From: a bacterium
GTDB taxonomy: Bacteria > JAHJDO01
DNA: 13,564 bases
NCBI GenBank assembly: GCA_030611945.1
Contig: JAUWOV010000051.1
Coordinates: 1 to 13,564 of the forward strand
Direction of reading: 5' to 3'
How positions within the stretch are numbered: the stretch's first letter is position 1; each line of letters starts with the position of its first letter. A model generated the notes under the pieces. The model was not told where the DNA came from, searched no databases, and was given only the letters and a program-made list of their open reading frames with translations. A program made the translations under genes and the position numbers. This document shows positions 2,714 through 3,154 of this stretch, piece after piece.

Positions 2714-2741
2714 TTTGATTGCTTTGTCACCCCAATAAAAA

Positions 2742-2869
2742 AGGGGCGCAAACATCTGTTACCGGCCACAACCAAGTAAATCCAGTAAGAGACTGCCACC
2801 CCTTCGCCATCCCGAAGGACAGCGACGCGACAGTTTCACCCTACTTGGTTGTGAGAAGCCGAAGCTTCT
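2742..2869 (-). ncRNA. Structured 5' leader RNA, candidate riboswitch of unknown class
   Basis: Read as minus-strand RNA, 5' to 3', the elements are as follows. Hairpin A (2869-2854) is AGAAGC, loop UUCG, GCUUCU. It abuts P1, a perfect 12-bp stem pairing 2853-2842 with 2778-2767 (CACAACCAAGTA in DNA terms). Inside P1 is P2, six pairs joining 2834-2829 with 2797-2792. Inside P2 is P3, nine pairs joining 2825-2817 with 2812-2804, capped by a UUCG tetraloop closed by C-G. The six unpaired bases between P3 and P2 (AGGGGU, 2803-2798) can pair with GCCCCU at 2747-2742, extendable to eight pairs, as a pseudoknot; a U-rich run follows at once. The UUCG loops (CGAA on the other strand) favour the minus strand, matching the promoter upstream and the PDZ gene downstream. 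I could not fit it to c-di-GMP, cobalamin, glycine or other known riboswitch consensus sequences. The ligand is unknown. Confidence 0.6.
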
Positions 2870-3003: not shown

Positions 3004-3030
3004 AAAAAAAGGGCACAGCACGCTGTGCCC
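3004..3030 (-). terminator. Intrinsic terminator of the efflux operon
   Basis: On the minus strand a GC-rich hairpin (GGGCACAGC pairing with GCTGTGCCC, 3030-3011) is followed directly by seven T (3010-3004). It lies about 125 nt after the stop of the RND gene and before the next promoter. The form GTAGGGGCACAGC...GCTGTGCCC also looks like a dispersed intergenic repeat that may have been adopted as a terminator. Confidence 0.8.
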
Positions 3031-3154
3031 CTACAAAAGCCAAATAATTTTTTGCGTTCATGCGTGCAAATTGTCACATAGTAATATCTGGATTCTGAAT
3101 AATTGAAATCCTTTATTCGGATTGATCTCCTGTGGTATTTGTCTGGATTAAATT

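Follow-up and report, generated by a model that had tools for sequence, protein, structure and literature searches.

The 5' leader analysed here, on the minus strand of a DNA stretch of 13,564 nt (the window), can adopt two folds that compete for the same strands. We put at roughly 0.7 the probability that it is a cis-acting transcription attenuator heading a PDZ/FHA-PilZ/DnaA-C operon and belonging to an RNA family unlisted in Rfam 15. The computations yield both folds, show that each covaries and that the two exclude one another, and place a coding sequence immediately downstream. The overlap of terminator and antiterminator, which escaped the original prediction, is the main evidence for regulation; that prediction was correct and important as an observation and half right as an interpretation. 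Few attenuator RNAs keep both competing folds so visibly, and this leader is common to unrelated lineages. If it is a sensor, it would reveal the signal controlling surface proteins, PilZ proteins and DNA methylases in those bacteria.

Architecture of the leader and its two folds

The leader structure lies at 2869-2742 of the minus strand, at the start of a bacterial mRNA. The order from 5' to 3' is promoter, about 49 nt of leader, P0, P1, P1b, P2, P3, tail, U6, GGGG, Shine-Dalgarno sequence and GTG start codon, with the following features:

2951-2923, minus: sigma-70-like promoter TTGACA-17-TATCAT, 11/12 consensus bases; the -10 box ends 49 nt before the RNA core
2869-2854, minus: P0 hairpin AGAAGC-UUCG-GCUUCU, 6 bp, adjoining P1; all cells paired, two-sided changes in two pairs among nine members
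2853-2842, minus: P1 5' arm, 12 nt; two-sided changes in nine P1 pairs among nine members
2840-2836, minus: P1b 5' arm, 5 bp; partner 2788-2784
2834-2827, minus: P2 5' arm, of 6 bp or, when extended, 8, with its partner at about 2799-2792; in the extended form P2 masks part of GGGGU
2825-2804, minus: P3 hairpin, 9 bp, UUCG loop; dispensable, being missing from both G076 members
2802-2782, minus: T 5' arm GGGGUG-GCA-GUCU-C-UUACUGG, overlapping P2 and P1b
2778-2767, minus: P1 3' arm, within the loop of T
2765-2743, minus: T 3' arm CCGGUAA-C-AGAU-GUUUG-CGCCCC (second fold)
2742-2737, minus: U6 tract immediately 3' of T; all members have an aligned U-tract
2733-2730, minus: GGGG 3' of the U-tract, could pair with CCCC of T; found in most members
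2712-2703, minus: Shine-Dalgarno sequence GAGGAGAAGG
2700-1750, minus: TPR/PDZ protein, first gene predicted to be controlled, GTG start at 2700; its paralogue at G000:C41 (75% identical) lacks the leader
1746-766, minus: FHA and PilZ protein, second gene (coding sequence)
766-479, minus: DnaA C-terminal (helix-turn-helix) domain protein, third gene (coding sequence)

The conserved tail between the P1 3' arm and U6 reads GCCGGUAACAGAUGUUUGCGCCCC in the window, and an upstream terminator (3032-3009) separates the leader from the RND gene. The stems originally drawn by eye, namely P1 of 12 bp, P2 of 6 bp, P3 of 9 bp with a UUCG loop and the abutting UUCG hairpin P0, are all present in the minimum-energy fold of the window's minus strand (-59.4 kcal/mol). 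Shuffled sequences average -42.7 (z -4.4), with 0 of 200 as stable, and the P1-P3 hairpin alone gives a z of -5.5. The well-spaced upstream promoter was also correctly read, while the ribosome-binding site announced about 60 nt downstream is actually about 25 nt beyond the U-tract. Features beyond the first reading are the 5-bp P1b, the 8-bp extended P2 and an exclusive hairpin, T (2802-2743), followed by U6.

Covariation supports the claim of a compact structured cis-regulatory leader. The nine-sequence alignment (A5) was fitted to the P0-P1-P1b-P2-P3 structure, and its numbers therefore lean towards that fold: 95.3% of cells are paired, and two-sided changes occur in 18 pairs (shuffled mean 11.4) and 53 cells (shuffled mean 16.9), neither value being reached in any of 500 shuffles. 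Covariation events are fewer than cells, since members of the same lineage are akin. When the partners are slid along the alignment as a control, pairing falls to 31-54%. Folding each sequence singly, with no alignment, recovers P0, P1 and P2 in all members but G277. The size of the effect and these unaided folds speak for a genuine antiterminator structure despite the fitted alignment.

The strand GGGGUG-GCA-GUC..UUAUCGG, part of which belongs to P2 and P1b, can alternatively pair with CCGAUAA..GAU..CGCCCC, itself followed at once by a U-tract. The resulting hairpin T ends in GCCCC plus the U-tract in most members. Its arms pair as UUAUCGG/CCGAUAA in G140, UUACUGG/CCGGUAA in the window and CUCAG/CUGGG in G212. 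On A5, which was not fitted to T, 97.6% of the cells of T pairs are paired; two-sided changes amount to 8 cells against 2.7 in shuffles (0/500 reach this), in 3 pairs, the latter a count not beyond shuffles. T has an energy of -19.6 to -26.3 kcal/mol in eight members (z -2.1 to -4.3) and is followed by U5-7 in eight of the nine; G076:C81 has instead a local GGGGUG/CGCCCC hairpin with a UGUUUU tail.

T and the antiterminator are mutually exclusive because each needs the strands of P2 and P1b; the P1 3' arm makes up the loop of T. P2 in the members gains two or three pairs into GGGGU, which sets it in direct competition with the base of T. A pseudoknot containing both P1 and T was considered; it is compatible with length estimates, but T breaks P2 and P1b, and the two were treated as exclusive. 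With P1 formed, the full fold is better than the T state by 4.7-11.6 kcal/mol, whereas once P1 is left out, T with P3 is clearly favoured over P2 with P3 (seven members compared), in a comparison that takes in neither kinetics nor protein effects. From these energies P1 is predicted to be the deciding arm.

Near the end of the hairpin, the segment CCCC-U6-AUU-GGGG (window 2730-2743) leaves the CCCC of T also able to pair with the GGGG after the U-tract. A leader peptide, MFAPLFYW from AUGUUUGCGCCCC, was discarded, as it has no Shine-Dalgarno sequence and its frame varies among copies, and so was an integron attC site, there being no core boxes at the stem ends.

Relatives of the leader

The window's phylum is represented in our sample by one genus of five genomes. 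Besides the window's copy, a full copy precedes a DNA methylase gene on contig C68 of the same genome (80% identical) and another precedes genes of small membrane proteins at G004:C24 (82% identical), while G003 keeps a deletion remnant before a homologous membrane protein gene. There (G003:C104; L005 1485-1545) the deletion joins the -35 region to the element's tail, a natural loss of P0-P3 and the T 5' arm. A four-bp block of P1 differs in each of the three full genus copies (AACC, TGAC and CGCA), every time with an exact partner (GGTT, GTCA and TGCG), and nearly everything outside it is constant. P1 is thus hypervariable yet always complementary, unlike even between two copies in one genome, which leads to a clear prediction on how the switch is set. 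Such variability could stem from diversifying selection or from the repair of palindromes. The block comprises the middle four bp of P1 (window 2842-2853 / 2767-2778, compared with L002 and L004), the neighbouring stems being constant, and the two G076 copies are also unlike in P1.

A covariance model built from only the three window-genus copies (R1) was run over 385 genomes and matched G140 (97 bits, E 7e-31), G212 (61 bits), G076 (49 bits) and G277 (34 bits). These four have only the domain in common with the window's genome and represent three lineages outside its phylum, G140 and G277 being of one genus of a small phylum. As the first four matches outside the genus took no part in building R1, they are an out-of-sample result. 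A refined model from seven sequences (R2) added two members, G388 and another copy in G076. The full members number only nine, all from computed alignments fitted to the model. Weak promoter-only matches in the genus turned out to be chance, as did the pattern-scan matches in viral contigs and, at a stage before the family was known, in genome contigs; the phage and plasmid collections contained nothing convincing.

The original prediction had matched the leader to no known riboswitch, in agreement with our search of Rfam 15, where neither the window leader nor the other members gave a match at gathering or permissive thresholds, the c-di-GMP families included. The family is new relative to Rfam 15. 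It is best described as a new family of an already known kind of device, the bistable attenuator leader.

A leader at G002:C115, ahead of a type III restriction-modification operon (L104 about 2490-2720; L036 1480-1720), shares its promoter and first transcribed bases with the genus copies. It is built on the same plan, its P1 having 13 bp and an exclusive hairpin GCCCGUCUUC/GGAGACGGGC reaching -32.8 kcal/mol. It differs from them in having another sequence and only a weak U-rich run, and it is missed by the covariance model.

Downstream genes and alternative readings

The PDZ, FHA-PilZ and DnaA-C genes overlap or are almost contiguous and are probably a single operon. The element does precede the PDZ gene, as had been proposed, but it is not a conserved leader of PDZ genes and precedes unrelated genes elsewhere: upstream regions differ and the RNA is absent at the paralogue in the same genome (G000:C41) and at the orthologues G001:C22 and G002:C134. 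Collecting the leaders of PDZ orthologues, the test originally suggested, would therefore have missed an RNA that is real. Products encoded downstream in the window's genus are TPR/PDZ and FHA-PilZ proteins (window), a DNA methylase (C68) and small membrane proteins (G004). Elsewhere they are a PilZ-ketoacyl synthase fusion (G212), a PD40 lipoprotein (G277), a TPR lipoprotein (G388), a coiled-coil protein and a membrane protein (G076) and a secreted protein (G140). No single pathway emerges from these genes; PilZ is seen twice, in the window and in G212.

An autonomous trans-acting small RNA, in which T would only end transcription and the freed RNA would refold to P0-P1-P2-P3 with the downstream genes incidental, is unlikely. 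It would fit the element's own promoter, own U-tract and extremely stable final fold, as well as a promoter-like match (TTGGGA-17-TATAAT) past the U-tract in G004 and G003, and neighbouring genes are unlike at nearly every locus, which tells against it. In all nine members a same-strand coding sequence starts about 10-70 nt past the U-tract, mostly leaving no room for a second promoter, and in six of the nine the -10 box ends 49-55 nt before the core. The coding sequence close behind and the fixed -10 distance together point to a leader arrangement and against a free small RNA.

The same regular placement bears on a mobile palindromic DNA repeat of MITE type with no RNA role, its stems perhaps kept matched by template switching at the palindrome. 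Copies at unrelated loci in the genus, including sites near AbiE-like and DUF1016-like genes, and the deletion remnant in G003 are what such a repeat might leave; however, each genome has 0-2 copies, in the same orientation and always between promoter and start codon, no terminal repeats are seen, T covaries too and the core is conserved between phyla. We regard this explanation as very improbable, and the scattered mobile repeat named at the outset as a possible refutation was not borne out.

With its two hairpins side by side, close to the promoter and at a constant distance from it, the leader also recalls antitermination RNAs that modify the polymerase (HK022 put or EAR type); here P0 and the stacked P1-P3 would act on the polymerase shortly after initiation and make it ignore T and later terminators. 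HK022 putRNA, which acts on RNA polymerase itself, likewise has paired hairpins at the transcript start and read-through as the outcome, but the hairpin here competes in cis with an overlapping terminator (PMC9378689). Two of the genus copies have a boxA-like TGTTCTTTAAAA past the promoter, and TGTTCTTTGACA occurs in the rRNA leader of the genome; yet the boxA-like sequence is confined to the window's genus and imperfect in the window itself, P1 is hypervariable in sequence, and strand competition with T already accounts for the conserved sequences. This reading is quite improbable, and boxA antitermination as a general mechanism was rejected, boxA not being seen outside the genus.

Proposed mechanism and comparison with known systems

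Under the attenuator reading, RNA polymerase would initiate some 45 nt ahead of P0. During synthesis of the leader, P1 (about 10-13 bp) would close over P1b, P2 and P3 and hide GGGGUGGCAGUC..UUAUCGG, acting as an antiterminator and allowing read-through. Were the P1 5' arm unavailable, the strand would pair with CCGAUAA..GAU..GCGCCCC to give T beside the U-tract, and transcription would stop. We infer that T terminates and that P1 is the control arm, with a predicted default state of ON that would turn OFF when P1 cannot form. Because minimum-energy folding predicts read-through by default, a trigger must be assumed; it may be a small ligand, a protein or an RNA that blocks P1. Conservation of both folds makes constant read-through or constant termination unlikely, and selection for both argues for a regulated switch.

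Counting against an attenuator, besides the need to assume a trigger, the downstream genes have no common pathway and the PDZ orthologues do without the leader. Two members also deviate. One is G277, where the most convincing promoter on visual inspection, TTGACA-17-TATATT, falls across the P1 position; its transcript may therefore be without the P1 5' arm, leaving P2 to compete with T. The other is G076:C81, where GGGG and CCCC pair within a self-contained local hairpin lying 3' of the switch region, and the strand overlap has thus been lost or rebuilt. These two exceptions and the small number of members are the main weaknesses of the attenuator reading.

In transcription-terminating ON riboswitches such as the pbuE adenine riboswitch, the P1-closed domain hides the 5' strand of the terminator, giving read-through when P1 is formed and termination when it is open. 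The P1 domain here likewise hides the terminator 5' strand, with the state of P1 deciding read-through in the proposed scheme. Unlike pbuE, the leader is without a known aptamer core or ligand and without a match in Rfam, its P1 should be stable enough to form unaided, and the genes downstream point to no one metabolite. A new riboswitch class, in which a small molecule or second messenger bound by the P0/P1 region or by the conserved P2-J3 core decides between P1 and the terminator, with horizontal spread alongside varied accessory genes in several little-studied phyla, is a tentative suggestion that we hold to be rather doubtful. PilZ being downstream twice hints faintly at a possible second-messenger link. 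The orphan structured leaders of comparative-genomics screens (PMC8632094, PMC11109978, PMC7266159) similarly combine a covarying leader with an expression platform; relative to these, the present motif is matched to no Rfam 15 family.

Several neighbouring elements were noted along the way. An AbiEi/AbiEii-like toxin-antitoxin pair (assigned by eye; L101 7890-9369) lies near the C68 leader copy. The RND gene of the window ends in the palindrome GGGCACAGCGTGCTGTGCCC followed by T7 (3008-3035), and a similar element is found near the C68 copy (L002 about 2958-2990), which suggests a dispersed repeat serving as terminator. The rRNA leader mentioned above has its boxA after the promoter TTGACA..TATAAT (L044 1400-1470, L045 1400-1470). 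At G004:C67 (L038, minus strand, 690-560), the same promoter as that of the genus copies is followed by TAAACGTAAACGAATCGGAGAAAATATAACGATAA, common to G002:C115; this leader is then interrupted by a repeat with TTATGCGTGCAG ends, of which more copies occur in G002 and G004.
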